IMG/VR virus record: IMGVR_UViG_3300042290_000330
Coordinates: 1 to 44,118 of that record
Direction: 5' to 3' (one strand)
From: a virus
DNA length: 44,118 nt
Shown here: piece by piece, positions 1 to 36,033 of the stretch
How positions within the stretch are numbered: position 1 is the stretch's first letter
Layout of the letters: every line of letters starts with the position of its first letter
The notes under the pieces: model-generated
Told to the model about the DNA's origin: nothing
What the model saw: only the letters and a program-made list of their open reading frames with translations
Database searches by the model: none
Made by a program: the position numbers and the translations under genes

Positions 1-247
1 CGATCCAAGTCGGCGCATTCGACGGCATGAAGAACCATCCAGCAACCGTGAAGCTCTGACTCTGGCATTGGATGTTAGCCGCCGTGGAGGTTAAGGACTG
101 ACTACTAGCCGAAGTAAACGACGCCGCATTGTCGTAGCTCGACGGCGTCTGGGTTCCGCTCGCGATCCCGGCGCGGCTGAAGTAGGCCAGGGCGTCGGGG
201 TCCTGGCCGCTTCTCAGGATGATATTGGTCCCCGCGGAGATCGGCAT
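1..247 (-). CDS. LamG-domain virion protein, 5' part (continues at 41993)
   Basis: This is the N-terminal 82 codons of the LamG/concanavalin-like protein annotated in full at 40663-42240. It is cut by the window edge and is not a separate gene. The start codon is at 247, three bases after the stop of the 198-residue gene at 251. This copy has Ile at residue 59 where the other copy has Leu. Confidence 0.9.
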   Translation of the reverse strand, partial: MPISAGTNIILRSGQDPDALAYFSRAGIASGTQTPSSYDNAASFTSASSQSLTSTAANIQCQSQSFTVAGWFFMPSNAPTWI

Positions 248-250
248 GGC

Positions 251-847: not shown

Positions 848-905
848 AGTGATATGGGGTGGGTTATGGGGAGGGGTGAAGGGGATTTACCATGAAGCTC
901 ATGGA

Positions 906-957
906 GAGCATGAAGAGGAGAGATGATCTGGTTAGTCCTTGATGGGCTTCATGGTGA
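906..957. repeat. Intergenic twin element, copy 1
   Basis: The block reads GAGCATGAAGAGGAGAG, then GGTTAGTCCTT, then CTTCATGGTGA. A close copy lies at 1714-1774, so the pair brackets the connector gene (977-1693) as a direct repeat. The second copy carries an extra 9-bp CTTCATG-type unit. It lies in the 129-bp gap between two late genes. Confidence 0.75.
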
Positions 958-976
958 GGTTTCTCATTTCTGATTC

Positions 977-1693
977 TCAGCCAACTCTTGCCGACCATCT
1001 TCCTCCCATGCCGCCGACCTGGAGGCCGATCTTGTCGCTCTCTCGGATGAGGTGGCCCTCGGCCCGGTATTCCTCGTTGTTGGCCTTGTCGAGCTGGCCA
1101 TCCTCTCGGAGGGCGTCACTGGCGATGGAGAGCTTCAGGTAGTCGGCCAGGACGGAGGGGACCGGGAGCTGTTTCCAGTTGGCTCCATTGGGGGGCTGGA
1201 CGTTGGAACTGGCCAGGATCGCCTCGTAGCAGTGGCCGTCGGAGGCCCTCACGATGTCCCCGGCGGCGTAGGTTGTCGCCGCGCTCCATGACGTCGCGCT
1301 GTATTGGTAGGGCCTCAGCCGGTAGTGCACCCATACGTCGGATGCCTCGATGTCGGGGTCAAGCAGAATCCTGTCATTCCTGAGAGAATAGCCGACTTCC
1401 TTGGGGTTGAGCGTCTTGTCCGGGTCGTCGAGGTAGATGCCAAAGATCTCGCCAAAGGGCTCCTGACCGGCCTGCTCGTAGGAGAGTGAGAGCTCCTCGC
1501 CGCTGATTTCCGGGCTGCGCTGCTCGATCCGGCAGAGCTCAGGCCAGCGGTCCCATTCCCAGGCAATGGCGATCCGGGTGTTGAGATACTCGGTGAGCGA
1601 GGCGCGTGTGGAGGAGAGGATCGCGGCCGAGGGGTCGAGTCCCATCCGTGCGGCGACGCCGGTGATGATCTTCTCGTAGGTTGTTGTTCTCAC
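977..1693 (-). CDS. Head-tail connector / tail-tube-A-like protein with chitin-binding-like insert
   Basis: This 238-residue protein follows the portal gene in the transcription order, where podoviruses encode the adaptor or tail-tubular-A protein. The helical N-terminal part (YEKIITGVAARMG, then NTRIAIAWEWDRWPEL) fits that family. An inserted segment at about residues 135-178 has aromatic and Gly positions of carbohydrate-binding module 5/12: WSAATTYAAGDIV, then a G-H-C-Y turn, then NGANWKQLP. The start codon is GTG (GTG-AGA-ACA-ACA) after a C-rich leader, with no Shine-Dalgarno site. The connector role is inferred from position and overall character. A second copy is at 42970-43686. Confidence 0.7.
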   Translation of the reverse strand: MRTTTYEKIITGVAARMGLDPSAAILSSTRASLTEYLNTRIAIAWEWDRWPELCRIEQRSPEISGEELSLSYEQAGQEPFGEIFGIYLDDPDKTLNPKEVGYSLRNDRILLDPDIEASDVWVHYRLRPYQYSATSWSAATTYAAGDIVRASDGHCYEAILASSNVQPPNGANWKQLPVPSVLADYLKLSIASDALREDGQLDKANNEEYRAEGHLIRESDKIGLQVGGMGGRWSARVG

Positions 1694-1713
1694 GGGGATG
1701 AAGGGGATGGAGG

Positions 1714-1774
1714 GAGCATGAAGAGGAGAGGTGAGTTGGTTAGTCCTTCATGAGCTTCATGCTCTTCATGGTGA
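1714..1774. repeat. Intergenic twin element, copy 2, with 9-bp CATGAAGxx units
   Basis: This is the partner of 906-957: GAGCATGAAGAGGAGAG and GGTTAGTCCTT are shared. It is followed by the 9-bp series CATGAGCTT, CATGCTCTT, CATGG. It fills most of the gap between the portal and connector genes. Confidence 0.75.
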
Positions 1775-1782
1775 ATCAGGTT

Positions 1783-3840: not shown

Positions 3841-3853
3841 GGGGAAAAGGGAA

Positions 3854-3917
3854 AAGTGGAAAGTGGAAAGTGGAAGGCGAAAACGGGGAGGCTCTGATTT
3901 TCGCTTTTAGCTTTTAG
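3854..3917. repeat. 7-bp arrays GTGGAAA (x3) and CTTTTAG (x2)
   Basis: Two different heptamer arrays lie in the 82-bp gap between the portal start and the preceding small gene. GTGGAAA units run from about 3854 to 3876, and TTTTAGC units from about 3903 to 3917. Only the period is shared. Confidence 0.8.
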
Positions 3918-3922
3918 CTTTT

Positions 3923-7995: not shown

Positions 7996-8325
7996 TCAAC
8001 GCTGACGGACCGACTCCTGACGCCTGCGCTCCAACTCGTGACGCACTGTGCGGATCATGTCAAGCCCTCCTGCACAATGAGCGAGCAGACCCGGCTTGTC
8101 GGCGACGGTCGCCGCGCTCACCAGCTCGATCTGATCGGCCTCGGCATCGGCCAGCAGCTCCTGCAATCCCCGCCACCAGAGCGGCTCATCATCGAGCCCG
8201 ACGGAGAAGGCCATCAGGCGCTCCTCATCGCTGAGGCGATGAGGGGAGGCTGAAGGCTGAAGGCTGAAGGCTGAAGGGCTGAGGAGGGACTTGATGCGGT
8301 GGATGATGTAGGTGATGGGGTTCAT
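7996..8325 (-). CDS. Hypothetical 109-aa protein with array-encoded segment
   Basis: I chose the ATG at 8325 because a CCAAACAACCCAACCCC leader precedes it, the type found before other starts here. Residues 17-26 (PSAFSLQPSA) are the literal translation of four GGCTGAA heptamers on the opposite strand (8248-8275). The rest is a helical, acidic domain (GLQELLADAEADQIEL) with a basic tail. I do not recognise it. If the true start lies after the array (the Met near residue 37), the array would be leader rather than coding. Confidence 0.6.
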   Translation of the reverse strand: MNPITYIIHRIKSLLSPSAFSLQPSASPHRLSDEERLMAFSVGLDDEPLWWRGLQELLADAEADQIELVSAATVADKPGLLAHCAGGLDMIRTVRHELERRRQESVRQR

Positions 8326-8347
8326 GGGGTTGGGTTGTTTGGTTGAT

Positions 8348-8638
8348 TTACAGGGATGAAGGGGATGAAAGGGATGCTTTGAATGCGTTGAGTTCATCGA
8401 CGGCAGGGAAGTAAAGTTCTCTTGATAATGCTTCGCCGATGGCGACGGCACGGGACAGTTGCGCCTTCAGCCTCTCGACCTCGGCCTTTGATGCGGTTAG
8501 TTCGCGTTCGATCTCAGCGCAAACCGCTGCATGAACGTAGTTCTCATAGACGGGGCAATCTTTCTCCGAAAGTTCGTAGTTTTGCTTGAGCGACATAGCG
8601 GAAACAGTTCGTGGTGTGTCTGTTATTTCATCATTCAT
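8348..8638 (-). CDS. Small coiled-coil protein after terminase, 96 aa
   Basis: The core, AAVCAEIERELTASKAEVERLK, is an amphipathic coiled coil; nothing else is recognisable. The MNDE start lies within a GATGAAT array (8629-8655), and the C-terminus runs into GGGATGAAG nonamer units (8352-8376). A second start, MSLKQNYE, is possible 14 codons in. It lies about 20 bp downstream of the large terminase stop in the same transcript. Confidence 0.6.
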   Translation of the reverse strand: MNDEITDTPRTVSAMSLKQNYELSEKDCPVYENYVHAAVCAEIERELTASKAEVERLKAQLSRAVAIGEALSRELYFPAVDELNAFKASLSSPSSL

Positions 8639-8655
8639 AATTCATCCTTCATAAA
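8629..8655. repeat. GATGAAT-family heptamer array at gene start
   Basis: On the minus strand this reads GAAGGATGAATTATGAATGATGAAAT. It contains the start codon of the 96-residue gene and several ATGA overlaps. Similar arrays lie at the starts of the genes at 11307, 15087 and 16899. Confidence 0.85.
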
Positions 8656-8661
8656 TTCCCG

Positions 8662-10278
8662 TCAGTACGTTCCACCGGAGCGGACTGACAAGATTTCTCC
8701 TTCTACATTTGTCACTCCTGAGAGGCAGAAGTACCGCAGGCAGTCGATGGGATCCTTGAGCGCGCCGGTCTTCCCGTCCGCGCCGGTCCATTCCTTGAGC
8801 GCATGGATGGTGTTCTTACACTCCTCGGAGACGTAGAGCCGGGGCTGGTTCAGCGCATCGACCGGCTTGCCGGTGTCGTAGTGGAGCCAGTCGTTGATCA
8901 GGTCGATCCCCTCGTCGATGTTCGTGCCTGGGGTGGCGACGAAGTTCAGGCCGATCTCGGCGCATTCCTCGATGAGCGTGGTGGCGCTCTCGCGGGCGAC
9001 GGTGGCGGCATTCCCATAGCGGGAATCCATCCAGCGCTCGAAGACTTGCTCTCCCTTCTCCAGTCGCTCGATCTCCTCCTTGTACCTCTCCAGTCCGAAG
9101 CCGAAGCTCTTCTGCGCCGGACCGGCACGGCCGTCGGCCTTCTTCCCGTCGGGCTCGGCCCATGCGCCCGCGTAGCCGACGCCGTCGATGTAGTCCTGTC
9201 CGGGCCACTCCCGATAGACAAAGGCCCTGCCCGAGTCGTCGATGATCAGCCAGATCATGTACCAGTTCCGACCCGAACAGGGATCGACAAACTGGTAGCG
9301 TGTCCCCTTGGTCGGGATGCGGCTCTGGGGGATGACATGGACGCGGTCACTGAAGAGGGGGAAGCGTCCGGCGATCGCCTTGGTCGGGACGCCGTAGGCT
9401 CGGCAGAGGATCTCGGGGCGGGCGGCCTTCTCCAGCTCTTCCCTCATGCGGGTCCAGCCTGCCCAGGGATTGTTCCGGGTGTGGAAGTAGAGCACGCTCG
9501 CCTTCCTGCGGACGCACTTCTGGATGACCGGAACCTTCTCATGGCCGGTGAGCGTGCGCTTCCCCTCGACATCGCCGTAGATCGGGAGCAGCTCGGCATC
9601 GGTCTCCTCGACCGCCTCGGCCCCGGTGAGGTAATCCTTCACCGTGGCGCTGTAACCCTCGACCGGCGTGAAGCTGACGATCAGCTTCCCATTCCGGTCG
9701 AGCAGGCGGTAGCGCATGGTGGTGAGCCAGTCGAGCGGAACCAGCTCGTCACACCAGATGATGTCGAGCTCGCCCCCCTCGATCGTCGAGACATCCTGGG
9801 CGTAGTTGCGGAACCAGCACTGGGATCCATTCGGAAGGACGAAGGCATTCTCCGAGAAGCCGTTCTTCTGCGAGTAGGAGATATTTGTGACCTGAGTCTT
9901 CTTGGCGGTCTTCCATTCGAGCGGCATCATGTTCCAGATGTAGGGCTGCTGCATCTCGACCGAGTTCGGAGCGGTCGTCTGGAAGCACCAGGCGCGAGCA
10001 CGAGGCTTCTCCACCAGCGCACGCATCACCTCGCGGGCGGCCCATGAGGATTTCCCCGAGCGGTTTCCACCCATGACCAGCACCTCCCGGTCATGCTCCA
10101 GCACGGCGCTGGCCCGCTTCCAGTGATCGGGGACAAAGCCATGCCGGAAGGGATCCTCCCGCTCCTTGCGGATCAGCTCTTCCCTAAGCTGGGCGGCGGC
10201 CAGCCACTGATCCGGTGGCAGTGTGGCCGGAGGAACCGGCAGGGCCGGGTGCGGGGTGGGTGTCCAGGATTTGGGCAT
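8662..10278 (-). CDS. terL: Terminase large subunit
   Basis: The 538-residue protein is the DNA-packaging motor and nuclease. The Walker A loop is GGNRSGKSS (residues 70-78). Walker B is LDIIWCDE, followed by the coupling motif SFTP. The C-terminal RNase H-like nuclease starts at FVDPCSGRNWYMIW with its first metal-binding Asp and continues to acidic residues near FGLERYKEEIERLE. Length and motif order match terminases of this type. The ATG at 10278 has a C-rich leader without Shine-Dalgarno. No small terminase is recognisable next to it; the 72-residue gene upstream is the nearest candidate by position. Confidence 0.95.
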   Translation of the reverse strand: MPKSWTPTPHPALPVPPATLPPDQWLAAAQLREELIRKEREDPFRHGFVPDHWKRASAVLEHDREVLVMGGNRSGKSSWAAREVMRALVEKPRARAWCFQTTAPNSVEMQQPYIWNMMPLEWKTAKKTQVTNISYSQKNGFSENAFVLPNGSQCWFRNYAQDVSTIEGGELDIIWCDELVPLDWLTTMRYRLLDRNGKLIVSFTPVEGYSATVKDYLTGAEAVEETDAELLPIYGDVEGKRTLTGHEKVPVIQKCVRRKASVLYFHTRNNPWAGWTRMREELEKAARPEILCRAYGVPTKAIAGRFPLFSDRVHVIPQSRIPTKGTRYQFVDPCSGRNWYMIWLIIDDSGRAFVYREWPGQDYIDGVGYAGAWAEPDGKKADGRAGPAQKSFGFGLERYKEEIERLEKGEQVFERWMDSRYGNAATVARESATTLIEECAEIGLNFVATPGTNIDEGIDLINDWLHYDTGKPVDALNQPRLYVSEECKNTIHALKEWTGADGKTGALKDPIDCLRYFCLSGVTNVEGEILSVRSGGTY

Positions 10279-10298
10279 GGGCGGAGGGGAGGCTGTTA

Positions 10299-10400
10299 GG
10301 CTGAAGGCTGAAGGCTGAAGGCTGGTCGGTCAGAGGATCTAACTGGATCCAGTGGGAAGGAGGGCAGACTCACAGGGATGAAGGGGATGAAGGGGATGGG
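10299..10400. repeat. GGCTGAA array, GGATCCAGTGGGAAGG unit and GGGATGAAG array
   Basis: Three repeat types share one gap upstream of terL. GGCTGAA (x3, 10299-10324) comes first. ACTGGATCCAGTGGGAAGG follows near 10342, sharing 16 bases with a site near 36088. The nonamer GGGATGAAG (10374-10400) ends next to the stop codon of the upstream gene at 10402. Confidence 0.85.
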
Positions 10401-10401
10401 G

Positions 10402-10620
10402 TTACTTCTTGCGGCGTGAGCCGAAGATCTCGTTGAACATCCCGTAGGTTTCGGCTCCGGACGCAGGCGTGGACGGTCGGGACGACTCGACTCCATGGCG
10501 GAATCCGTGATCCCAGACGGTCACAAAGAACTTCCTGATCCCTGCACTGGTGAAATGGGGATTGTCGGCCAGTTTCGGGTTGCTCTTGAGGAGTTTCTTC
10601 CAGAGGTCTTCTCGGTTCAT
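10402..10620 (-). CDS. Small protein upstream of terL, 72 aa
   Basis: Residues 1-45 are helical and charged (NREDLWKKLLKSNPKLAD, then GIRKFFVTVWDHGFRHG). The tail is Ser/Pro-rich and ends SRRKK. I do not recognise a family. Its place just upstream of terL is where a small terminase usually lies, but it is shorter than typical small subunits and has no clear helix-turn-helix. Confidence 0.65.
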   Translation of the reverse strand: MNREDLWKKLLKSNPKLADNPHFTSAGIRKFFVTVWDHGFRHGVESSRPSTPASGAETYGMFNEIFGSRRKK

Positions 10621-10623
10621 AGG

Positions 10624-10658
10624 GAAAGGCTAAAGGCTGAAGGCTAAAGGCTGAAGGT
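10624..10658. repeat. GGCTGAA/GGCTAAA heptamer array
   Basis: Alternating GGCTAAA and GGCTGAA units (about five) fill most of the 50-bp gap between the 72-residue gene and the micro-gene at 10671. Confidence 0.85.
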
Positions 10659-10670
10659 GGGGACTGAGGG

Positions 10671-10778
10671 TTACTCGTGGGCGGAGAGCTTCTCGTAGAC
10701 GCGGGCGACCAGCTCGCCGAACCCGATGGTCCACCGCTTGCCGAGGATCGTGGCCGTGCAGACTTTCTTAAAGCTCAT
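10671..10778 (-). CDS. Micro-ORF, 35 aa
   Basis: The sequence begins MSFKKVCTATILGKRWTIGF and ends in KLSAHE. It is included because its ATG overlaps the stop of the preceding gene as ATGA (10778-10775), the joint used throughout this operon. There is no Shine-Dalgarno site and no recognised family. Confidence 0.5.
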   Translation of the reverse strand: MSFKKVCTATILGKRWTIGFGELVARVYEKLSAHE

Positions 10779-10966
10779 GGATGGGGTGGAACGGTGCGGG
10801 GGGAATGGGGGGCAGGCGCTAGGGGGTTAGGCTCTAGGCTGTTAGGTTTGCTGGCCCCTTTCGCCTTCAGCCTTTCGCCTTTCGCCTTTCCAAAGATCCC
10901 ATCCCAGTTCTCCCGATACTCCCGGCTGAAGCAGTTCCTCGGGCTGTCACCTTTCCCGGCGCTCAT
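10775..10966 (-). CDS. Small 'SAGKGDSPR' phage protein, 63 aa
   Basis: The N-terminus MSAGKGDSPRNCFSREYREN followed by WDGIFGK is a pattern I know from many small phage proteins of unknown function (G-K-G-D-x-P-R, then Y-x-x-N-x-D-x-I-F). The start overlaps the preceding stop as ATGA and its stop overlaps the next start as ATGA. Residues 26-48 (KAKGERLKAKG, then NSLEPNP) are encoded by a GCCTTTC/GGCTGAA-type heptamer array at 10859-10890 and so may be recent and non-functional. Confidence 0.7.
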   Translation of the reverse strand: MSAGKGDSPRNCFSREYRENWDGIFGKAKGERLKAKGASKPNSLEPNPLAPAPHSPRTVPPHP

Positions 10967-11307
10967 GGCTTGGCCTCCTTGATCAGCCACTGCGCCTCGC
11001 CGAGCATGTCCCCGACTCCATGCCGGTAGCCGAGCATGAAGGCGTGCTCGAAGCGCTCCATGGCGTCGATCACCCCATTCCCCTCGCGGCCTAGATAGCG
11101 GATCCCTTCCGTGCGCCACACACGCTTCCATAGGGGCTCGGAAGGATCTGATGCAGGGACTGAAGATTCTCGCGCAGAGGCGCAGAGGCGCTGAGGAGGG
11201 GCCGAGAAATCCATGGGAATGGTTGATCTATCTCTCAAGATCGCCTTGCGGCGTCGCTTCTCTTCGATGGATTGCTGGGATTGCAGGTTCTTTATTTCAT
11301 CATTCAT
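10963..11307 (-). CDS. Hypothetical helical protein, 114 aa or 83 aa
   Basis: Two starts are possible. MNDEIKNL at 11307 lies in a GATGAAT array; MDFSAPPQ at 11214 comes just before a CGCAGAGG 8-bp repeat that encodes RLCASARES. The conserved-looking part is the C-terminal 60 residues, which are amphipathic helices (GVIDAMERFEHAFMLGYRHG). I do not recognise it. The stop overlaps the start of the SAGKGD protein as ATGA. Confidence 0.6.
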   Translation of the reverse strand: MNDEIKNLQSQQSIEEKRRRKAILRDRSTIPMDFSAPPQRLCASARESSVPASDPSEPLWKRVWRTEGIRYLGREGNGVIDAMERFEHAFMLGYRHGVGDMLGEAQWLIKEAKP

Positions 11308-11322
11308 AATTCATCCTTCATC
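11291..11322. repeat. GATGAAT-family array at stop/start junction
   Basis: On the minus strand this is TGATGAAGGATGAATTATGAATGATGAAATAAA in pieces. It includes the stop of the DUF6378 gene (11321-11323) and the start of the 114-residue gene (11307). Confidence 0.85.
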
Positions 11323-11893
11323 ATTTGCCTTGATTCGCCACGGGAACGGATGGCCAATCCTTTTCAGTCTCTCCAGCACCATGGAGCCCAGCGGCCACCG
11401 GCCTGCCGGGTTGACTGCCCGTGGTAAATTCATATCCCTGATCCCGCGCCTGGATCGCCATGTCGAGGCAGTTCAGGTATCCTGCGGCATCGACGCGGTT
11501 ATCCCGCTTGGGCTTGTAAGCCTCCCGTGCCAGCTTCACGCAGACCATGAAGAGGATGGCATCCTCGGTGGTGAGCCGGTGGCCGGTCAGTGAGTTAAAC
11601 GCGGCGCTCACCCGTCCGTAGTCATGGGAGGGGTGGCCGTAGGAGTCGTTGCGATCCCGGGTGGTGAGGTGCTCGGCCTCGCTCAGGATGGAGTTGCCAG
11701 GCTTCCCGGAGAGATGGCTCTCCATCTCGGCGATGCGATCCTTGAGCGACGCGATGTAGGCCTGGTGAGCCGGTGTGAACATGGGATCCTTTTCCCTGAG
11801 TTCCTGATTTCCTGATTTTTTCTTTTTCATGGTCGATGGCTTGGTTTTCACCTGGGCGACCCACTCGGGATCGTAGTTGATGGTGGTTGTCAT
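11321..11893 (-). CDS. DUF6378-like protein with MTTxINYDP N-terminus
   Basis: The 190-residue product has a C-terminal half matching the phage family DUF6378: ILSEAEHLTTRDRNDSYGHP, then TEDAILFMVCVKLAREAYKP and DAAGYLNCLDMAIQAR. I recall this family being compared with MazG-like or nucleotide-metabolism folds, but its activity is not established. The N-terminus, MTTTINYDPEWVAQVKTKPS, is nearly shared with the gene starting at 14324. I chose the ATG at 11893 because it follows a long A/C-only leader and because the shared N-terminus begins there. Confidence 0.75.
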   Translation of the reverse strand: MTTTINYDPEWVAQVKTKPSTMKKKKSGNQELREKDPMFTPAHQAYIASLKDRIAEMESHLSGKPGNSILSEAEHLTTRDRNDSYGHPSHDYGRVSAAFNSLTGHRLTTEDAILFMVCVKLAREAYKPKRDNRVDAAGYLNCLDMAIQARDQGYEFTTGSQPGRPVAAGLHGAGETEKDWPSVPVANQGK

Positions 11894-11895
11894 GG

Positions 11896-11976
11896 TGGGT
11901 GGCTTGGTGGGTGGCTTGGTGGTTGGCTTGGTTGGCTGGTTTTTCACTTTTTCACTTTCTAACTTTTCACGTTTCA
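11896..11976. repeat. GGTGGGTGGCTT repeats and TTTCAC units
   Basis: On the minus strand this reads as an A/C-rich leader (AAGCCACCCACC repeated) directly before the ATG at 11893. It is preceded by GTGAAAA units (11941-11976) related to the TTAGAAAGTGAAAG repeats at 39831. Confidence 0.75.
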
Positions 11977-11984
11977 CTTCGGGC

Positions 11985-13355
11985 CTAGTGCTTCTGGCGT
12001 TTTTCTTTGTTGTTGGAGTAGAGGGCTTCGGTGACGTTGGCGAAGCGGGTGTATTCGGCCTCGAACTTGAGGTTCACGGTGCCGACGGGGCCGTTGCGCT
12101 GCTTGGCGACGATCAGCTCGACGCTCCCGTCATCGAGGCTGTTCCCGTCGCTGTCCTTCATCCCCTTCTTCGGCCGGTGGAGCATGACGACGATGTCGGC
12201 ATCCTGTTCGATCTGGCCGCTCTCGCGCAGGTCGGCGAGCTTCGGGGCGCTCCGTTCCTCGGCATTCCTCCCGAGCTGGGTGGCGGCGATGACGGGGACG
12301 CCGAGTTCCTTGGCGGTGGCCTTCAGGGCCATGGAGATCTCGGCCACTTCGTAGGCGCGGTTCTCCTGGGCTCGCTTGCTGGTGCTCCGCATGAGCTGCA
12401 GGTAGTCCACGACGATGCACTTCACCCCGTGCTTCACGACGGCGCGGCGGGCGCGGCCCCGGAAGTCGAAGATATTGAGGCTCGGGGTCTCGTCGATGTA
12501 GAGCGGGAGGTGGCCGATCTTGCTGGCGGCGACCGGCATGCGCTGCATGTCGTTCTTGTTCATGAATCCGTCCCGCACCCGCTTCAGGTCGAGCGGCATC
12601 TCGGTGCAGATCATGCGGGAGGCGAGATCGACTCCCGTCATTTCCAGTGAGAAGACGGCCACGGGAAAGCCACCCTCGGCCATGGAGGTGGCCCACTGGA
12701 CGGAGAGGGCGCTCTTCCCCATGCCGGGCCGTCCCGCGACGACGACCATCTGGCCGGGGCGCAGCCCGCCGGTCATGCGGTCGAAGTCGGTGGTCATGGT
12801 GGGGAGGCCGACGCATTTGCCACGGTTCTTATAGGTGGACTCGATCCCCTCGATGGCCTCCATGACATACCCCTCGATGTGCTTCAGCGAGGTCTCGGCC
12901 TTGGTCCCGCCACGGAGCTGGAGCCAGCGGGCCTCGACTTCATTCAGCAGGACATGGGGCTCGTTCACGCTCTCCACGGCCATGCGGGCGGTCTCATTGG
13001 CGACCCGCAGGATGGCTCTCCTCATGGCCTTCTCCCGCAGGATGTCGGCGTAGGCGATGACATTGGCGGAGGTCGGGATGAAGATGGCGATCTCGGTGAG
13101 GTAGGCGGGGTTCTCCTTGATCACGGGGAGGTCGCGCAGGGCGTCGCTGACGGAGATGAGGTCGATGGGCTTGCGGTCGAGGAAGCGCTGCTTCAGGCAC
13201 TCCCAGACGACCATGTGGGCGGGATCGAAGAAGTGATCCCCGGTGAGATCCCCCAGCTCCTCCATGCACTCGGGCTGAATCATGCAGGAGCAGAGGACCC
13301 CCTTCTCGGCATCCCTGTTGTAGGGAATGCCACTGCGGGTGAGGTCGTCGCTCAT
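11985..13355 (-). CDS. dnaB: Replicative DNA helicase, DnaB family
   Basis: The 456-residue protein has both DnaB domains. The N-terminal helical domain (residues 10-115, with AEKGVLCSCMIQPECMEELG) is followed by a linker and the RecA-like ATPase. Walker A is GRPGMGKS (208-215), the sensor helix follows SLEM, Walker B is IVVDYLQLM (314-322), and the Q/R loop region is IAATQLGR. DnaB forms a hexamer that unwinds DNA at the phage fork. Its start overlaps the upstream stop as ATGA. No DnaC/DnaI-type loader is obvious; the DUF1376 protein at 17705 is the likely origin protein. Confidence 0.97.
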   Translation of the reverse strand: MSDDLTRSGIPYNRDAEKGVLCSCMIQPECMEELGDLTGDHFFDPAHMVVWECLKQRFLDRKPIDLISVSDALRDLPVIKENPAYLTEIAIFIPTSANVIAYADILREKAMRRAILRVANETARMAVESVNEPHVLLNEVEARWLQLRGGTKAETSLKHIEGYVMEAIEGIESTYKNRGKCVGLPTMTTDFDRMTGGLRPGQMVVVAGRPGMGKSALSVQWATSMAEGGFPVAVFSLEMTGVDLASRMICTEMPLDLKRVRDGFMNKNDMQRMPVAASKIGHLPLYIDETPSLNIFDFRGRARRAVVKHGVKCIVVDYLQLMRSTSKRAQENRAYEVAEISMALKATAKELGVPVIAATQLGRNAEERSAPKLADLRESGQIEQDADIVVMLHRPKKGMKDSDGNSLDDGSVELIVAKQRNGPVGTVNLKFEAEYTRFANVTEALYSNNKEKRQKH

Positions 13356-13843
13356 GACTTCACCTCCGTAAGCTTCAGCATTGTATCAGCAACCATATCA
13401 AGGAACCCCGTGGCCTTCAGCGCCTGCAATCGCTCGCATAGGTCAACAAACTCCTTCAGTCTAGCCACTTCATCCTTGTGGTCGTGAGCAAGGAAGAACT
13501 TCCTAATATCAGACAATGGCTGAATTATTTGAGATACCTCCGTTGCGACGGCCATCCTTACAGCCCGGATGTCGGAGATGTATTGATTCGATGTCTTCTT
13601 GAAATCCTCAATATCACCCCCCATCCCAGAAAGTAGGGTGTTGACGATCTCGCGGGCGTCTTGGGCCTCTTTAACCGTGGGCTTCGATTGCTTGGGGAGC
13701 TTGTCTGCCTCGTTGCAGAGAAGCTCCATTAAGTCATCCCTGCTTATCTCTATCCCTCCATCGGAAGCAACGCGGCAACGGATTCCGTTTGATGTAAATG
13801 ACCCCGACGATGGACGGGATGCCAATGTGTTTTTCTCAATCAT
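13352..13843 (-). CDS. Coiled-coil protein upstream of dnaB, 163 aa
   Basis: The start at 13843 (MIEKNTLASRP) overlaps the upstream stop as ATGA, so I prefer it to the earlier in-frame ATG at 13897. Residues 60-160 are helical (DAREIVNTLL, QIIQPLSDIRKFF, VARLKEFVDLCERLQ). No family is recognised. Base composition is lower in GC than in dnaB next door, which suggests a separate origin. A helicase-loader role is possible from position only. Confidence 0.65.
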   Translation of the reverse strand: MIEKNTLASRPSSGSFTSNGIRCRVASDGGIEISRDDLMELLCNEADKLPKQSKPTVKEAQDAREIVNTLLSGMGGDIEDFKKTSNQYISDIRAVRMAVATEVSQIIQPLSDIRKFFLAHDHKDEVARLKEFVDLCERLQALKATGFLDMVADTMLKLTEVKS

Positions 13844-14037
13844 ATTTTTGTCACTTTGAATGTTTCCCCCTGAACCAGTAGGTAGTTGAACTTCCAAATT
13901 ATTTCAGAAGCCATGGCTTCAGCATCTTCATCAGTGTTGCCCAAAGAGGAGATCGTCTCCACGAGCAGATCACGGTGATCTGCGCAGAATGCGGCGATGG
14001 AGTCGCACTCATAGAAATCTAAAGTTATTTCCTTCAT
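13840..14037 (-). CDS. Small acidic protein, 65 aa
   Basis: The sequence starts MKEITLDFYECDSIAAFCAD and is acidic and helical. The start overlaps the upstream stop as ATGA at 14037-14034, and the stop overlaps the downstream start in the same way. It is AT-richer than its neighbours. The function is unknown. Confidence 0.65.
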   Translation of the reverse strand: MKEITLDFYECDSIAAFCADHRDLLVETISSLGNTDEDAEAMASEIIWKFNYLLVQGETFKVTKI

Positions 14038-14324
14038 ACAAGGTTCCTGCTGGTGATAGAGACTTCGGCCTTCACAATCTTGCACGCCTTCAGGACGGCG
14101 AAGCCTCGGGCATGAGTCGGGTGCTTGGCGGCCAGTCTCAGCGCCTCGGCGCACGCTTCCTGATAGGTGGCGTGCTCGCGGGTGGGGTGGGCGTCGGCCT
14201 TGGTGACGCAGCCCGACCCGAGCCTGATGACCATCCAGAAGATGGCATCGGGGTTGTCGGGATGGGCGGGCTTGGTGTTCACCTGGGCGAACTCGTAGGG
14301 ATCGTAGTTAATGTGGGTTGTCAT
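14034..14324 (-). CDS. Small protein sharing the MTTxINYDP N-terminus, 96 aa
   Basis: The N-terminus MTTHINYDPYEFAQVNTKPA matches that of the DUF6378-like protein (MTTTINYDPEWVAQVKTKPS) at both protein and DNA level, whereas the remainders differ. The body is a small alpha/beta-looking domain with TYQEACAEALRLAAKHP. The function is unknown. The shared leader points to duplication of a 5' module. Confidence 0.7.
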   Translation of the reverse strand: MTTHINYDPYEFAQVNTKPAHPDNPDAIFWMVIRLGSGCVTKADAHPTREHATYQEACAEALRLAAKHPTHARGFAVLKACKIVKAEVSITSRNLV

Positions 14325-14328
14325 GGGA

Positions 14329-14363
14329 TTAGGAGTTGGAAGCTAGGAGTTAGGAGTTAGGGG
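14329..14363. repeat. TTAGGAG heptamer array (five variant units)
   Basis: The units are TTAGGAG, TTGGAAG, CTAGGAG, TTAGGAG and TTAGGGG in exact 7-bp register. They fill the gap between the lipoprotein stop (14367) and the start at 14324. Confidence 0.85.
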
Positions 14364-14366
14364 TGA

Positions 14367-14639
14367 TTATCGACGCGACGCGGAAATACCAATCGCCGCC
14401 GCGCTCATTGCGGTGGCGGTTTCAGCGTTGTCGGCGGCCCTTTTAGCCTCGCCTCCGGGCAGCATGTAGTTCTCTCGAAGCATCTGCCATTCACTAAGAC
14501 TGATGTCAGAGCGACCGTAGAATTTACACCAGGCGTTATATAGCGCCTCTCGGTCTTGACGTGATTCGCAGCCAGTTAAGACAAGGAGCGTGAGTGCGAT
14601 GCCTAGGGTGGTGATGTTGTTTTTGATGTTTGTTGTCAT
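14367..14639 (-). CDS. Small lipoprotein, 90 aa
   Basis: A lipoprotein signal (hydrophobic residues 11-20, lipobox LTGC with Cys24) is followed by a polar helical domain. The mature protein would be acylated and anchored in a membrane. It lies in the replication block away from the lysis genes, so it is more likely an exported accessory protein than an outer spanin, though a spanin is not excluded. The ATG follows a CAACCCATACCTACACC leader. Confidence 0.75.
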   Translation of the reverse strand: MTTNIKNNITTLGIALTLLVLTGCESRQDREALYNAWCKFYGRSDISLSEWQMLRENYMLPGGEAKRAADNAETATAMSAAAIGISASRR

Positions 14640-14673
14640 GGTGTAGGTATGGGTTGGTTGGTGGTTTGGTTTT

Positions 14674-14706
14674 CCTTCAGCCTTTAGCCTTCAGCCTTCA
14701 GCCTTT
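14674..14706. repeat. TTCAGCC/TTTAGCC heptamer array
   Basis: About four units, with orientation opposite to the arrays at 10299 and 36109, in the 69-bp gap between the lipoprotein and the membrane micropeptide. Confidence 0.85.
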
Positions 14707-14708
14707 CT

Positions 14709-14783
14709 TTAGGTTTTCGGCGTGAAGAAGAAGAGGACCGCCAGCACGACGGCTGTGAATCCGGTGAGGAGTGTCTCGTTCAT
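14709..14783 (-). CDS. Single-span membrane micropeptide, 24 aa
   Basis: The peptide starts MNETLLTGFTAVVLAVL and ends FFTPKT, a single hydrophobic span with short polar ends. It lies between heptamer arrays on the operon strand. It is supported only by its clean membrane profile and placement. Confidence 0.35.
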   Translation of the reverse strand: MNETLLTGFTAVVLAVLFFFTPKT

Positions 14784-14817
14784 TGATTAGGTTGTTAGGG
14801 GATTAGGCTGAAGGCTG

Positions 14818-15087
14818 TTAGGTCAGAGGCTTAGAGTGCTTCACAATTTCAACAAACATCCGATCAATGGCCTCCTTGAGCGGCGGCCATTCCTCGGGTT
14901 CGATCTCGACCTGTTGCTCTTTCACAGCCGAGCTCATACTGTTCTGAGTAACGACGAGGTATTCGCCTCCTGCTTGGTCTTCGATTTCTATGGTTGTGCA
15001 GCGCTCCGAGAAAATGGATTCACTTTCTGGGAGGATGGCGATTTTCAACGTGCGGGTGATGTAGGGTTTCATTTCATCATTCATCAT
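14818..15087 (-). CDS. Hypothetical protein, 89 aa
   Basis: The product has a beta-rich N-terminal part (ITRTLKIAILPESES, GGEYLVVTQ) and a C-terminal helix (PLKEAIDRMFVEIVKH). Three starts (15087, 15084, 15072) are possible, because the start lies in a GATGAAT array. I do not recognise it. Confidence 0.65.
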   Translation of the reverse strand: MMNDEMKPYITRTLKIAILPESESIFSERCTTIEIEDQAGGEYLVVTQNSMSSAVKEQQVEIEPEEWPPLKEAIDRMFVEIVKHSKPLT

Positions 15088-15100
15088 TCTTCATTCATCC
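15070..15100. repeat. GATGAAT-family array at gene start
   Basis: On the minus strand: GGATGAATGAAGAATGATGA, then ATGATGAAATGAAA, overlapping the first codons of the 89-residue gene. Confidence 0.85.
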
Positions 15101-15106
15101 TTTCCC

Positions 15107-15409
15107 CTAAAACGGGATGTCATCCTCGGCCATGTCGGGCTGGGGTGCGGCCGGTGGCTTCGGAGCGGGGGCGGGTGCCTGGCGCTTCTCTCCGAGGTGC
15201 TTCCAGTTACCCAGGATGGGGAGCTGGACGCCTGCTTCGCGGTCTTCCTTGGACTGGGACTGTTTGACGAAGCCGTCATTCCCGTGGGAATCGGGCTTGT
15301 CAAAGAGGACGAGGTTCACGAAGACGGCTGGCTGGCCGGACTTGCGGGTGATCCGCTTAAGGCGGGCCTTGTCGAGGAGGGTAACGTCGATGTCGATGGC
15401 GATGGGCAT
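15107..15409 (-). CDS. Single-stranded DNA-binding protein-like, 100 aa
   Basis: A short beta-rich N-terminal domain is followed by a Pro/Ala-rich linker and the tip MAEDDIPF. An acidic tail ending D-D-I-P-F is the hallmark of SSB proteins, which use it to recruit repair and replication partners. The body is shorter than a standard OB-fold SSB (about 75 residues before the linker), so it may be a divergent phage SSB or an SSB mimic. It lies in the replication operon. The ATG follows an AACAACCCAACCACC leader. Confidence 0.7.
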   Translation of the reverse strand: MPIAIDIDVTLLDKARLKRITRKSGQPAVFVNLVLFDKPDSHGNDGFVKQSQSKEDREAGVQLPILGNWKHLGEKRQAPAPAPKPPAAPQPDMAEDDIPF

Positions 15410-15441
15410 GGTGGTTGGGTTGTTGGGTTGTTGGTTGGTGG

Positions 15442-16044
15442 TTACTGGATTTCGGAGAGGATGTTGGCGAGTTGTCTGGCGCTGAGTTCGCAGGGGTGAT
15501 TGATGATCACCTTGCGGCCACGCACGCTATAAACGGGAAGGGAAGACATGACCTTGCCCTTGGCGCGGTCTGCCTCGTTCCTAGACTCAATGAACGCTCT
15601 CTGCGCGGCCAAGGATCGAACGGCTCCCCGGTCAAATACCTGCCTGCATTGCGCGGGTGTCAGGTTCTCGGGAGCCACTTGAAGGGTCTCCGTGCCGGAT
15701 TCCGTAATGATGAGCAGCTCGACGGTTCCATCCTGAAGCCTTGCCTGCTCGGAGTAGGGCAGCTTGATCATGTGATCCGCCGCCGGATAGTCGGCGACAA
15801 GTAGGCGAGGAAGGATCTGCTTGCGTCCTAGCGACTCGAACCTCCCGACGATGGCCTCGGTCAGGCACGAGGACGACCCCGCGATCTCCGGCACGGTCAG
15901 TCCGTGCTCGTCGATCAGCGCGACGACGACCTCTCCGGCCTTGGCCCAGCATTCGAGGCCCTGAGTGATCAGCGCTGCGAACTCAGAGATAAGCGGAGCG
16001 CTGGCCGCAGGGATCTTGGTGTGGTGTTTTGCTAGTGTTGTCAT
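15442..16044 (-). CDS. Hypothetical protein, 200 aa
   Basis: The N-terminal 80 residues are helical with a possible helix-turn-helix (LTVPEIAGSSSCLTEAIVGR). The middle is beta-rich (GTVELLIITESG) and the C-terminal helix ends ARQLANILSEIQ. It may be a regulator or DNA-associated protein; I cannot assign a family. The ATG follows an AAACACCAAACCCAAAACAC leader without Shine-Dalgarno. Confidence 0.7.
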   Translation of the reverse strand: MTTLAKHHTKIPAASAPLISEFAALITQGLECWAKAGEVVVALIDEHGLTVPEIAGSSSCLTEAIVGRFESLGRKQILPRLLVADYPAADHMIKLPYSEQARLQDGTVELLIITESGTETLQVAPENLTPAQCRQVFDRGAVRSLAAQRAFIESRNEADRAKGKVMSSLPVYSVRGRKVIINHPCELSARQLANILSEIQ

Positions 16045-16068
16045 GGTGTTGTGTTTTGGGTTTGGTGT

Positions 16069-16899
16069 TTATGCTGCTACTAAATCCATCAGTCGCTTGA
16101 TCCCGATCAGGGACTGGAAGAAGAACTTCTCCGACTTGCTGACTGGCCGAATCTTGGAAATCTTCCGAATGCGGCGGCTGATAAAGGTCACGATCTGTGA
16201 CTTGCGGATGCGCTCCTTCTTCTCGTAGAGGAACGCACGGGGATCTTGATGCTTGAGGCCAAGTGCCATCTTGATCAGATGAAAGCGATCTCCCGAAAGG
16301 AAGGTCGGACCTGCCGCCTTCCTACTGGGGCCGTAAATAAAAGCCCTAAGCAGATTACTAAAACCTCCCCCAATAATCACTTCACTCAACGGCCTCCGCA
16401 GGAGAGATAAGACAAAGACTCTCCTTAGTGGAAATTGCATAGCTAGCGGAAACGCCTCAGTTCTATACCTCCACACCAGTCCGGTGCGGGGGCAGATCCT
16501 AACTGGAGCAACCGCAAACTCCGTGATATTCCAGCGATCAGGACATGGTAAGTATTGTGTCCTATCGTACCAGTTGGATGACGACGGAATGTTTCTTTTA
16601 ATCATCTCAAGCGTGATCTCTTGATCCCACAGGCCACCCATGGCCGTTGTCTGTATCGACCTAAATCTCTTCTTGTCCTCGGAAACTAGCCACTGAGCTG
16701 CCTTACGGCACTCGAATGACGGGAACAATGGGCCATCATCACGCTGTAGCCTGCTGGAGCTAGACCGATACAAAGCCCGGCGACGACCATCAACATAGAT
16801 GGCCCAATCAAAATGAACCCACTCCCTCTCGATGCGGGGATATAGAATGAGAATAGCGTCTGTCTTTTGCTGGGTGCTCATAGTTTCATCATTCATCAT
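16069..16899 (-). CDS. Unrecognised low-GC protein, 276 aa
   Basis: No motif is recognised. The protein is basic at its C-terminal end (KKERIRKSQIVTF, SRRIRKISKIRP) and has several Trp and Arg clusters. Base composition and codons are clearly more AT-rich than in the genes around it, which suggests recent acquisition. Start candidates MMNDETMS and MST all fall in a GATGAAT array; the ATG at 16899 overlaps the upstream stop as ATGA. Confidence 0.7.
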   Translation of the reverse strand: MMNDETMSTQQKTDAILILYPRIEREWVHFDWAIYVDGRRRALYRSSSSRLQRDDGPLFPSFECRKAAQWLVSEDKKRFRSIQTTAMGGLWDQEITLEMIKRNIPSSSNWYDRTQYLPCPDRWNITEFAVAPVRICPRTGLVWRYRTEAFPLAMQFPLRRVFVLSLLRRPLSEVIIGGGFSNLLRAFIYGPSRKAAGPTFLSGDRFHLIKMALGLKHQDPRAFLYEKKERIRKSQIVTFISRRIRKISKIRPVSKSEKFFFQSLIGIKRLMDLVAA

Positions 16900-16912
16900 T
16901 CATCATTCATCC
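16885..16912. repeat. GATGAAT array (four units) spanning a stop/start junction
   Basis: On the minus strand GATGAAT repeats four times. The last codons (RMNDE) and stop of the 66-residue gene and the first codons (MMNDE) of the 276-residue gene are both encoded by this array. Confidence 0.9.
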
Positions 16913-17096
16913 TTTTCAGCTCCCCCCGCGTCATGGGGCGCAATCCGCTGTCGAGTAGTCGGCTCTCGACCAGTTCGGTCTCGATCCGGCATTCCTCGCA
17001 CAAGGGGCCGATGCCGGGCTCGTGGAGCTTGGCGATCTCGGGGTGGTTGCACCCGCAGAGGGCGCACGGTGCGTCGATGGTCTCGGTGTCACTCAT
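16896..17096 (-). CDS. Small Cys-rich zinc-ribbon-like protein, 66 aa
   Basis: The pattern APCALCGCNHPEIAKLHEPG, then PLCEECRIE, gives two CxxC pairs about 20 residues apart (C11/C14 and C33/C36), fitting a treble-clef or zinc-ribbon. Such small proteins occur as DNA- or protein-binding adaptors in phages. It overlaps the upstream gene by 8 bp, and its C-terminus is array-derived (RMNDE). Confidence 0.7.
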   Translation of the reverse strand: MSDTETIDAPCALCGCNHPEIAKLHEPGIGPLCEECRIETELVESRLLDSGLRPMTRGELKRMNDE

Positions 17097-17463
17097 GGGG
17101 AAGAGGCTGTTGGGGTGGTCTCTCGGGGATGATGACGGTCTCGCCGCGCTCGCGCTTGGCCTCGACGGCCATGATGATCTCGCGGGTGAGCACGGCCCGG
17201 TGGTACTCGACAGGGCTGATGAGCCGGTCGCGGGTACGCTCGTAGCGTTCGCGGAGCCAGCGGTCGCAGGCGTCGCCGACGATCTTGGCATTCGCAACTT
17301 CCCACCAGTTCCAGACTCCGGTGCCGGGCTCGGGCTCGACGGAGAGGGCGGAGCCGTTGTGCCGGACGGTGGAGAGTTCGCTCAGGTCGATGGCAGGGGC
17401 ATCCTTCATGCGGGATCCTCCACCCCATCGCTCTGTCCGGTTGCTGGTGGCGGCGCTGCTCAT
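17089..17463 (-). CDS. Hypothetical protein, 124 aa
   Basis: The start at 17463 (MSSAATSNRT) overlaps the upstream stop as ATGA. The central part, GVWNWWEVANAKIVGDACDR, and a helix with ERTRDRLISPVEYHRAV suggest a compact helical domain. I do not recognise it. Confidence 0.7.
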   Translation of the reverse strand: MSSAATSNRTERWGGGSRMKDAPAIDLSELSTVRHNGSALSVEPEPGTGVWNWWEVANAKIVGDACDRWLRERYERTRDRLISPVEYHRAVLTREIIMAVEAKRERGETVIIPERPPQQPLPHE

Positions 17464-17708
17464 ATCTGCTCCCTGCTTGGCTCTGGCAGATGGCACCAGT
17501 GCGTTATTACGGAATCAATTTCCTCATCGAGGTAGGCATTCCACCACTTATCTCCTTCATAGACGGCGATGAAGTGAGCCTCGCCATCCCATGCAAGAAC
17601 GCAAAGGGGGCGATCAGGAAGCCAGTCACCGGCACGATGCCAGTCGTTATGAATCCTTAACTCCGTCATGCGGATCGCCTGCTCGTGGATTTTTTTTAGA
17701 TCGCTCAT
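17460..17708 (-). CDS. DUF551-like protein, 82 aa
   Basis: The pattern WLPDRPLCVLAWDGE, then WWNAYLDEEIDSVITHWCHL and PEP, matches the small phage family DUF551, which ends in THWxPLPEPP. The function of the family is unknown. It is joined to both neighbours by ATGA overlaps. Confidence 0.75.
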   Translation of the reverse strand: MSDLKKIHEQAIRMTELRIHNDWHRAGDWLPDRPLCVLAWDGEAHFIAVYEGDKWWNAYLDEEIDSVITHWCHLPEPSREQI

Positions 17709-18607
17709 GGCTGTTCCTTGATGCGGTTAATGATCTGAGCCCTGACGGCGGGAGGAAGCCCCTCCCATGTGGCGCTCTCCACGGCCTCGGGGTCGCTGTC
17801 GTCGTAGAGCTCGACCAGGATGCGTCTCCATCCTTCGGGCTCGGGATCGCCCCCCCGTTTTTCTTTTTTCAAGAAGTCCGCGCCACGGTTGCTGGCCTCG
17901 GTGCGGGCTCGCTGGATCTCGCCGTTCCAGTTGGCGAGCAGGGTGCCGAGATCCTTGCGGCGGTACTCTCCGGCATCGCCCTTGCCGGTGCCCTGGGCAA
18001 AGAGCCACTCAAGCAGGAGCCAGTCCTCTTCGCTGGTGCTCTCGACCACCCCTTTATTTTTTTTCCAAGAACGGAGCTGGCTTGAATCCAGTTGAGTCGA
18101 GGGACGCATCCGGAAGAGCATCCGGGCTCGGTTGAGGTGCAGATTCTTGTCGATGAGATCCGTCTGAACGTCCCCGTTCACGGGGACTATAGGGGTATTC
18201 TCTGATTGCTGATTACTGATTAATGATAGGGTTCGACTCGCTTTCGTTTGGGTTTCCTCTGGGTTCCCAGTGGGTTTCTCTGGGTTTCGTTTCGCTTTTT
18301 TAGGCCGTCCACCTCTTTTGCCGTTGCTCTTGTTTTTCTCACAAACAGCGTGGTATTCCGCGATCTCGGCATCTGCCCTGCCGTTTTTCCACCCGTTTTC
18401 GGTCTTGGTGAAGAAGTCTTTTAGCACGACTTCAACATCGTCATGCGAAATCTGAATACGCCTGGCAACCCAGTGGGTATCCAGTGGGATTTGAGACTCT
18501 TCCGTGTAGTAGAGATCGAGCAGCCGTCGGTAGCAGAGATCCTCGTTATTGGACAGATGCCGTGTCTGGACGGCGTAGTCGTTGATATGGAACTTGTAGA
18601 AGTGCAT
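17705..18607 (-). CDS. Replication initiation protein, DUF1376 domain
   Basis: The start at 18607 (MHFYKFHINDYAVQTRHLS) overlaps the upstream stop as TAATG. Residues 1-85 match DUF1376 (YdaU-like), a winged-helix domain found in phage O-like replication proteins: LSNNEDLCYRRLLDLYY, then PLDTHWVARRIQIS. A basic Lys/Arg/Pro-rich linker (residues 92-120) follows, then a C-terminal helical domain. It probably binds the phage origin and recruits the DnaB helicase encoded downstream. Two homopolymer A-tracts lie in the gene. Confidence 0.8.
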   Translation of the reverse strand: MHFYKFHINDYAVQTRHLSNNEDLCYRRLLDLYYTEESQIPLDTHWVARRIQISHDDVEVVLKDFFTKTENGWKNGRADAEIAEYHAVCEKNKSNGKRGGRPKKAKRNPEKPTGNPEETQTKASRTLSLISNQQSENTPIVPVNGDVQTDLIDKNLHLNRARMLFRMRPSTQLDSSQLRSWKKNKGVVESTSEEDWLLLEWLFAQGTGKGDAGEYRRKDLGTLLANWNGEIQRARTEASNRGADFLKKEKRGGDPEPEGWRRILVELYDDSDPEAVESATWEGLPPAVRAQIINRIKEQP

Positions 18608-18822
18608 TAGTTTCCCCTCCCGATGGTGGAGGAGTAGCGTGGAGCGTGGACCCCTTCTTTTTTCAGGGCATCGCGCATGAGGAACCAGAATTGGCTCCAC
18701 TGGACGGCGCTCATGGCCGACCGGGCTGATGCCGAGCCGGATCCCTCCCGCTCGGAGAGATGGGAGTCGATGCTCCCGGCATGGCGGTAACGCCAGCCCA
18801 TGATGTTCGAGAGCCGCTTCAT
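18607..18822 (-). CDS. Small protein, 71 aa
   Basis: The sequence begins MKRLSNIMGWRYRHAGSIDS and contains VQWSQFWFLMRDALKKEG. It overlaps the upstream stop as ATGA and the downstream start as TAATG. The function is unknown. Confidence 0.65.
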   Translation of the reverse strand: MKRLSNIMGWRYRHAGSIDSHLSEREGSGSASARSAMSAVQWSQFWFLMRDALKKEGVHAPRYSSTIGRGN

Positions 18823-19190
18823 TTTGCGAAACGAAGCCAGCGCTTCTCCCGCACGATGTAGAGACGGCCATCGGCATCGGCCTCCGCCTCGATGTAGGTC
18901 TTGACCCGGAATGCCTGGGCATCCTTGCAGCCGACCGTGAGTAGCTCATCCTCCGGTCCGTGCATCCTGCGTGCCTGAAGGAGGTTCTTGTTTTTTCCGA
19001 TCCGGGCGACATAGAGGCGAACCCTCCGGTCGTTCCCTTGGTCGGAAGCTCCCGAGGTCTCGGGTGCCGTCTTCCCCATCGGCCCAGCCGCCCCCCCTTT
19101 TTCTTTTTTGGAAGCGATTCCGGGCAGGATGCGGTTGATCAGCGAGGGTTTCTCCTCGGTGGTATTGGTTGGTGTTGGTGTGGTGCTCAT
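18819..19190 (-). CDS. Hypothetical protein, 123 aa
   Basis: The ATG at 19190 (MSTTPTPTNTTEE) is preferred to an earlier in-frame ATG at 19220, which would overlap the upstream gene by four bases. The N-terminus is Thr/Pro-rich, and a Lys/Gly stretch (SKKEKGGAAG) is encoded by an A6GA5G7 tract. The C-terminal 65 residues are a small beta-rich domain (RVRLYVARIGKNKN, GRLYIVREKRWLRF). The function is unknown. Confidence 0.65.
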   Translation of the reverse strand: MSTTPTPTNTTEEKPSLINRILPGIASKKEKGGAAGPMGKTAPETSGASDQGNDRRVRLYVARIGKNKNLLQARRMHGPEDELLTVGCKDAQAFRVKTYIEAEADADGRLYIVREKRWLRFAK

Positions 19191-19216
19191 TTTAGTGAAA
19201 ATTTTCTGAGAATGGA

Positions 19217-20170
19217 TCAATGCCCCCCGGACACCCGGCGTGATTTTGCGGACCCCCTCCCCCCCTCTGTTCGCGCTCGCCTTGCCCTCTTACGCTCTCC
19301 GGTCGTCGTCGTCGCATCGTTGGCCGTCTCGGTGTCCTCGACGCTCTGGCCGGGCTCCTGAGTGGCTGGCTGGCCATCCTCGACGGCCTCGAAGCCGGGC
19401 GAATGTGTATCAGAAAGCGTAGCAATCCCATCATCTACAGAGTCGGAACCTGTCAAACCATCTGATTGCTCATCAGGTGCTGAAGGTTTCTCACTGTTTC
19501 CCGTGGGAATCTCGGCAGCAGAAGAGACACCAGGGAGGAGAGCCAGGCCAGCGCCGGGAGCGGCCACCGCGGCGGGCTCGGCCTGCACCGCGGCGACCGG
19601 ATCGGCCTCCTTTTGGGCAACTTCTTCCCCCTTAAAACCGATCTCCTGGACAAGCTCCGCCTCAATGACATTCCCGGAGATCATGCGGATATAGTCCTCA
19701 TGGGTGGGGCCGCTTTCAGTGTGCTCGATCCTGGACGTTGCGCCACCGGCCAGCAGCTCGGCCTTCTCCACGGCGATGCCTAAAGCAATGGGGAGACTTT
19801 GAATGGGGATCTGGTCCACCTCATCAAGCAGACGATCGGCGGCGAGCCGTCCGAATGTCCGCAATACGGAAACAGTCCTTTCTTTAAGTGTGGCTACAGC
19901 TTGAGATTCCCGCGCCATCACCGCGGCGACCGTATGATGAGATACCCGGTAAGCACGGCAGAGTTGGCGAACCCCGAGACCTTGCCCGAGACCATCGACC
20001 AGCGCCTTGTATATAGTCGGACGGGATTCCATCAACCGCTCGGCAGTGAACTCTCCGCGCTTCTCCATGTTCTCCGTTCCCTCTTCTTGGCTATCCACCA
20101 AAAAAAGAGAAGGGGCGGCGGATTCCTCCGCGGCCTGCTCATCGAGTAGAGACTTGGGACGGCGAGCCAT
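19217..20170 (-). CDS. HTH DNA-binding protein with acidic disordered tail, 317 aa
   Basis: Residues 45-90 hold a helix-turn-helix: a helix ending GLGQGLGVRQLCRAY, then RVSHHTVAAVMARE. A helical region with IPIQSLPIALGIAVEKAELL follows. From about residue 190 the chain is low-complexity (Ala/Pro/Glu/Ser) and ends in a basic patch (GERKRARRARTEGG). It could be a regulator, a partition-type protein or a distant small terminase, since the HTH plus following helices resemble that layout. It is far from terL, so I leave the role open. Confidence 0.7.
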   Translation of the reverse strand: MARRPKSLLDEQAAEESAAPSLFLVDSQEEGTENMEKRGEFTAERLMESRPTIYKALVDGLGQGLGVRQLCRAYRVSHHTVAAVMARESQAVATLKERTVSVLRTFGRLAADRLLDEVDQIPIQSLPIALGIAVEKAELLAGGATSRIEHTESGPTHEDYIRMISGNVIEAELVQEIGFKGEEVAQKEADPVAAVQAEPAAVAAPGAGLALLPGVSSAAEIPTGNSEKPSAPDEQSDGLTGSDSVDDGIATLSDTHSPGFEAVEDGQPATQEPGQSVEDTETANDATTTTGERKRARRARTEGGRGSAKSRRVSGGH

Positions 20171-36014: not shown

Positions 36015-36033
36015 AGGGGATTAGGGGGAAATT

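Follow-up and report, generated by a model that had tools for sequence, protein, structure and literature searches.

Arrays of the heptad GATGAAT at gene ends in a phage genome: a probable directional boundary repeat whose start codons may be borrowed

Heptameric repeats of the types GGGAATC and GGGGA(C/T)T have been described in Xanthomonas and Nostoc, with no function found for them (Rehm et al., 2015; PMC4692102), and direct repeats of TAACTGA in the marine Beggiatoaceae have been proposed to act in translational regulation (MacGregor, 2015; PMC4679880). The Cluster K mycobacteriophages carry start-associated sequences at the starts of many unrelated genes (PMC3203893), and tandem repeats are described for the archaeal Borg elements in the passages of PMC9879509 considered here. 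We describe arrays of the heptad GATGAAT in IMG/VR virus record IMGVR_UViG_3300042290_000330, positions 1 to 44,118 (the whole 44,118-base stretch analysed, hereafter the window). These arrays probably belong to a directional family of gene-boundary heptads in which the purine-rich strand runs outward from the adjoining gene, and the next gene may borrow an ATG from them. A single polarity rule ties together several heptad families, many bacterial phyla and a group of phages, which points to one process at gene ends rather than to the function of any single sequence.

The gene content of the window is that of a phage, with a terminase and a DnaB helicase among others, and its two ends (window 1-2125 and 41994-44118) form a direct repeat 2,125 bases long with 1 mismatch, which makes the record about 41,993 bases plus an overlap, in the manner of a phage genome that is circular or permuted. 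Period-7 arrays number 23, against 0 in 20 shuffles, and any period besides 7 and 14 yields 0 to 5 arrays; when 2 mismatches at most are allowed, the 14-mer GATGAATGATGAAT has 20 matches where 0.34 are expected. Besides GATGAAT there are heptad families based on AAGGCTG, AAAGTGG, GCTAAAA, AATGAAG and GTCGAGA, and none of the heptad arrays in the window is of TAACTGA. With genes called automatically, the window heptads are outward in 14 cases and inward in 4; a figure of 16 of 18 outward was obtained by hand correction after the result had been seen, when two genes missed by the caller (38304-38813, which has a Pfam match, and a 24-codon open reading frame, or ORF, ending near 14710) were added.

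The same polarity is evident in 120 chromosomal stretches fetched by the array pattern, where GATGAAT arrays at the nearest gene boundary are outward 87 times and inward 13 times (p 1e-14), and in relatives of this phage, where all heptads together give 67 outward and 15 inward. Non-overlapping arrays taken alone are also mostly outward (all heptads, 55 and 9), including those on the stop side (30 and 5). In a deeper sample of about 743 kb from four chromosomes, an upstream stop lies within 20 nt of the codirectional sense array in 15 of 16 cases and a downstream start within 20 nt in none of the 16. Of the arrays lying no more than 40 nt from a start, 13 are antisense and 5 sense in the chromosomes; the figures for viral contigs are 17 and 14. 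The earlier note on this DNA had suggested that GATGAAT could be a universal signal for coupling neighbouring genes, and had named a lack of preference for sense orientation at gene starts among the results that would refute this; the counts show that lack, and the chromosomal arrays do not support coupling as the general function. Paired arrays less than 150 nt apart converge in 24 cases and diverge in 0, and many of the antisense arrays in the deeply sampled chromosomes are the second arm of such a pair. A general purine skew beside genes was rejected as the cause of the polarity, since next to gene ends that lack an array the fraction of purines in the outward direction is 0.44-0.54 in the four chromosomes, with no consistent skew. 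Some converging pairs enclose a further palindrome (L083, 7645-7773; L097, 6419-6544), so that much of the intergenic stretch there is one inverted repeat.

The codon content of the arrays cannot be their common reason, because the GTCGAGA unit contains neither a start nor a stop codon and yet occupies the same places: a GTCGAGA/GTCGAGG array (36146-36174, minus strand), itself free of stop and start codons, lies in sense orientation directly after the stop at 36175, and a sense GTCGAGA array (38872-38902, minus strand) lies at the stop at 38901. On this ground the idea that all heptads act as stop cassettes was rejected, and the sharing of positions and orientation by heptads without start or stop codons likewise argues that the arrays are not kept for their frame independence. 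Comparison suggests that an array is mainly part of the end of the previous gene and is not a dedicated restart signal. A sense array would be attached to the upstream gene at its 3′ end, with a TGA of the array able to turn into that gene's stop; an antisense array would be attached to the downstream gene at its 5′ end. In this compact phage the next gene would start within or just behind such a 3′ array. At least two genes appear to have borrowed an array ATG, a step that the 7-base period and the ATGA content would make easy by conferring frame independence. The arrays themselves may expand by slippage or repeat expansion and then be filtered or selected by orientation.

Several points weigh against this interpretation. 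The genome sample is not random, as loci were fetched for holding an array and some genomes give several; orthologous sites in different phage relatives are not fully independent; and the gene calls come from a home-made, codon-based caller and are uncurated. A stop inside the sense array, which applies to about half of the stop-side cases, makes the association partly built in. Single chromosomes vary (11 versus 4 in G002 and 5 versus 1 in G012, neither significant alone), antisense arrays hug starts weakly in the deeply sampled chromosomes (4 of 13 within 20 nt), and chromosomal heptads other than GATGAAT show no significant polarity (14 versus 5, p 0.064).

Four GATGAAT arrays of the window lie in sense orientation to minus-strand genes, with ORFs beginning MNDE or MMNDE at 8638, 11307, 15087 and 16899, as the earlier note had read them. 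It had also pointed out that such arrays offer ATGA in every frame; ATG, TGA and ATGA are indeed present in all three frames at each of the four sites, and since a pure GATGAAT unit has two ATGA per 7 bases (offsets 1, 5, 8, 12 ...), fewer than three units suffice. Since an ORF finder picks the first start that follows a stop, and the array holds both in all frames, the MNDE starts are partly made by the method and prove nothing by themselves; relatives were therefore compared, 42 of which were found among viral contigs searched with the terminase (the nearest at 97-99 %).

The array at 8626-8655 (minus strand; TTTATGAAGGATGAATTATGAATGATGAAA) follows by a few nucleotides the stop of the gene for the terminase large subunit (8662-10278, minus strand; PF03237, E 7.5e-7) and is the source of the predicted start of a small protein, MNDEITDTPRT... 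(8348-8638, minus strand). Relatives of this protein begin MNTDTPRTDA, MTTDTPRTDA, MKNDKTDTPRTDA, METEKSEKLESENVESDTPRTDA and similar, the common (T)DTPRTDA motif coming directly after variable start codons that often sit in another short repeat, and in the window the sole in-frame ATG ahead of TDTPRT is the ATG of the array. The array at 11295-11325 (minus strand) gives both the stop of an upstream 218-aa ORF (11321) and the predicted start of a small protein (10963-11307, minus strand) beginning MNDEIKNLQSQQSIEEKRRR. Its homologues begin MKQDTKLENAYKAAEEKRRR, MSDTKLQNAYKAAEEKRRR or MKDTKLENAYKAAEEKRRR at ATGs outside any GATGAAT array; the window start is aligned with these array-free starts, the distance to EEKRRR being equal within one residue. 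The alignment in the one case, and the motif position and sole ATG in the other, indicate that the array starts are probably real and that genes 8638 and 11307 probably take their predicted start codons from a GATGAAT array. The DTPRTDA family of small proteins is present in several copies within a single phage contig (L182 at 4282, 4408 and 4946; L183 at 936 and 4278), and each of these copies has a different N-terminus, often derived from a repeat.

The other two genes are different. The array at 16884-16912 (minus strand) supplies the last codons and the stop of the upstream ORF (...ELKRMNDE, ending at 16896), just as the earlier note had it, and together with 11321 this makes two sites at which the upstream stop lies within the array. 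An ATGA-type overlap of stop and start is mechanically present at 16899-16896, but for a 50 % homologue of the 276-aa ORF (16069-16899, minus strand) in contig L177 the stop is followed by an array of CTGAAAC, which lacks ATG, and the homologue begins MNT beyond that array; the window gene thus probably starts after the array, at MSTQQ. For the small protein (MMNDE)MKPYITRTL (14818-15087, minus strand), the array at 15072-15101 (minus strand) comes a few nucleotides after the stop of the gene at 15107-15409, and the start is ambiguous, since ATGs are present both in the array and right behind it. The proposal that all four genes start in arrays is thus supported by homologues at 8638 and 11307, argued against at 16899 and left ambiguous at 15087, and of the stop/restart cassette there remain the stops supplied at 11321 and 16896 and the starts at 8638 and 11307 but not a general function.

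A serious alternative, although not the one we favour, is that the heptads are neutral products of slippage and owe their polarity to purifying selection alone. Ahead of a start, a purine array in sense orientation would create spurious starts or sites resembling a Shine-Dalgarno sequence; over a stop, an antisense array would destroy that stop. Both the over-representation of heptameric repeats in bacteria and the idea of slippage are cited by Rehm et al. (2015; PMC4692102), and since a Shine-Dalgarno-like core is found upstream in just 5 of 26 well-scored window genes, stray purine tracts could matter. What this leaves unexplained is the rarity of antisense arrays just after stops rather than over them, seen in the 30 outward and 5 inward stop-side cases given above, and also the excess of converging over diverging pairs.

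We consider it rather unlikely that the arrays serve as recombination linkers, with shared arrays providing the short homology by which genes are swapped from junction to junction, a role that has been proposed for boundary sequences in phages. The junction at 11295 speaks for such exchange: after the 218-aa gene ending near 11321, the GATGAAT array is followed in relatives by one of three genes, namely that of the window, the MKPYITR gene or a third one, and the sequence common to relatives ends at the array. The MKPYITR gene itself accompanies an array at the 11.3 kb junction in L015 and L041 and at 15.1 kb in the window. These comparisons show that arrays tolerate gene exchange at their downstream edge. 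However, counts per junction give no significant excess of synteny breaks where arrays are present (8/14 versus 8/28, p 0.10; rank test, p 0.19), and the pooled value (p 7e-5) is dominated by the terminase junction, so that a concentration of gene turnover at array junctions was rejected; moreover, chromosomal arrays have conserved neighbours according to Rehm et al. (2015; PMC4692102).

A dedicated translational-coupling cassette, in which GATGAAT is selected because its ATGA stops any upstream gene and restarts any downstream one, now seems improbable. It would account for the presence of ATGA in all frames at all four sites, for the array starts of 8638 and 11307 and for the joining of one upstream gene end and its array to three different downstream genes. 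It does not account for the sense arrays of the four deeply sampled chromosomes, which sit at stops and in 0 of 16 cases within 20 nt of a downstream start, nor for the excess near chromosomal starts of antisense arrays, which are incapable of restart. At the 11295 junction, the same 218-aa gene is followed in some relatives by an AAGGCTA array giving a TAA stop, so that either heptad provides the stop of the upstream gene, and at two of the four junctions a heptad without ATG (AAGGCTA or CCTGAAA) stands in for the array in relatives, with the gene starting behind it. Four-base gene overlaps without arrays also occur in the phage, for example at 13352-13355 and 18819-18822.

Least probable by far is that the arrays are remnants of end-capping, in which gene modules or broken DNA ends were extended by the outward purine-rich heptad strand, in telomere-like fashion, and then joined. 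The outcome would be arrays pointing outward from gene ends, with head-to-head pairs in the intergenic stretches, a geometry that fits the 24 converging and 0 diverging pairs and the one to three dominant heptads seen in each chromosome.

Beyond the interval treated in the earlier note there are many other heptad families and two antisense GATGAAT arrays, at 36030-36060 (plus strand), upstream of the start at 36014, and at 38825-38855 (plus strand), upstream of the start at 38813 of a gene with a C1q domain; they lie 12-20 nt before minus-strand starts and give no start. Other antisense arrays on the plus strand are one of AAAGTGG (3842-3875), 1 nt before the start at 3840, and two of AAGGCTG, at 10298-10324, 19 nt before the terminase start, and at 39354-39390, 3 nt before the start at 39350. 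On the minus strand, a sense GCTAAAA array (3898-3922) lies directly after the stop at 3923 and a sense AATGAAG array (40036-40068) overlaps the called stop at 40064. Arrays of the nine-base unit GGGATGAAG are also present (8352-8376, 10375-10398 and 39984-40007), and pyrimidine-rich leaders precede several window gene starts. RNA hairpins were rejected as the function of the window arrays, since the four GATGAAT sites fold only weakly, with most of the array itself left unpaired.

GATGAAT arrays span many bacterial phyla as well as phages, and a Spirosoma strain is one example of a cultured bacterium rich in them. A megablast search of window positions 8000-20000 against phage records gave no match. 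Terminase relatives with 38-48 % identity are present in 8 of 289 Verrucomicrobiota genomes and only suggest a host in that phylum. A 20-mer of the array is found in 8 of 195 Verrucomicrobiota genomes, a sporadic distribution; the long variant pattern of the array is absent from these 195 and four-unit AAGGCTG arrays are in only 2 of them, so that no host was identified. A control pattern, AAGGCTG units read backwards, had 24 matches in one Verrucomicrobiota genome (G080), where another heptad family is therefore abundant.

Two consequences follow. Start and stop calls inside such arrays are partly made by the array, which is a warning for annotation, and phage genes can, to judge from the homologues, take a start codon from a repeat.

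Among the described systems, the repeats of Rehm et al. (2015) are alike in their period of 7, their intergenic and dispersed location and their occasional inverted pairs, and also in polarity, being on the coding strand up to 50 bp after stops (overlap with the stop included) and on the non-coding strand up to 50 bp before starts. The tandem 7-base unit and the outward polarity are thus shared, but the G-rich unit capable of forming a G-quadruplex is not: the Rehm unit forms one and contains no ATG, whereas GATGAAT has no run of G. Those repeats are chromosomal and were not found on the plasmids examined, whereas GATGAAT occurs in many phyla and in phages, with many unit families in one phage. 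The TAACTGA arrays (MacGregor, 2015) are also heptamers at gene boundaries, with forward stops in all frames, a sporadic distribution over phyla and 13 sets that overlap an upstream stop. In BOGUAY, however, they are mostly forward and end beside the downstream start, unlike the chromosomal sense arrays of GATGAAT; a forward array immediately upstream of a start is seen here at the four window sites only, and the TAACTGA unit, having no ATG, cannot supply an ATG start codon. The Cluster K sequences resemble the arrays in being short repeats at the starts of many unrelated phage genes, but their 13-bp consensus is not repeated in tandem, sits upstream of the start codon, almost always keeps to one orientation, supplies no codons and is not described at stops, whereas the window arrays are tandem, of period 7 and at both gene ends. 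Borgs, in the passages cited, likewise have many tandem-repeat families per extrachromosomal genome, some beginning inside gene ends, and a compositional bias; their units are perfect and in the examples mostly longer, about half lie within genes and have unit lengths divisible by three, and those passages do not mention an outward polarity. Relative to the repeats of Rehm et al. and MacGregor, what is new is the presence of ATG in the unit, the variety of heptad families in one phage, the borrowing of start codons to which homology points, and converging pairs in many phyla.

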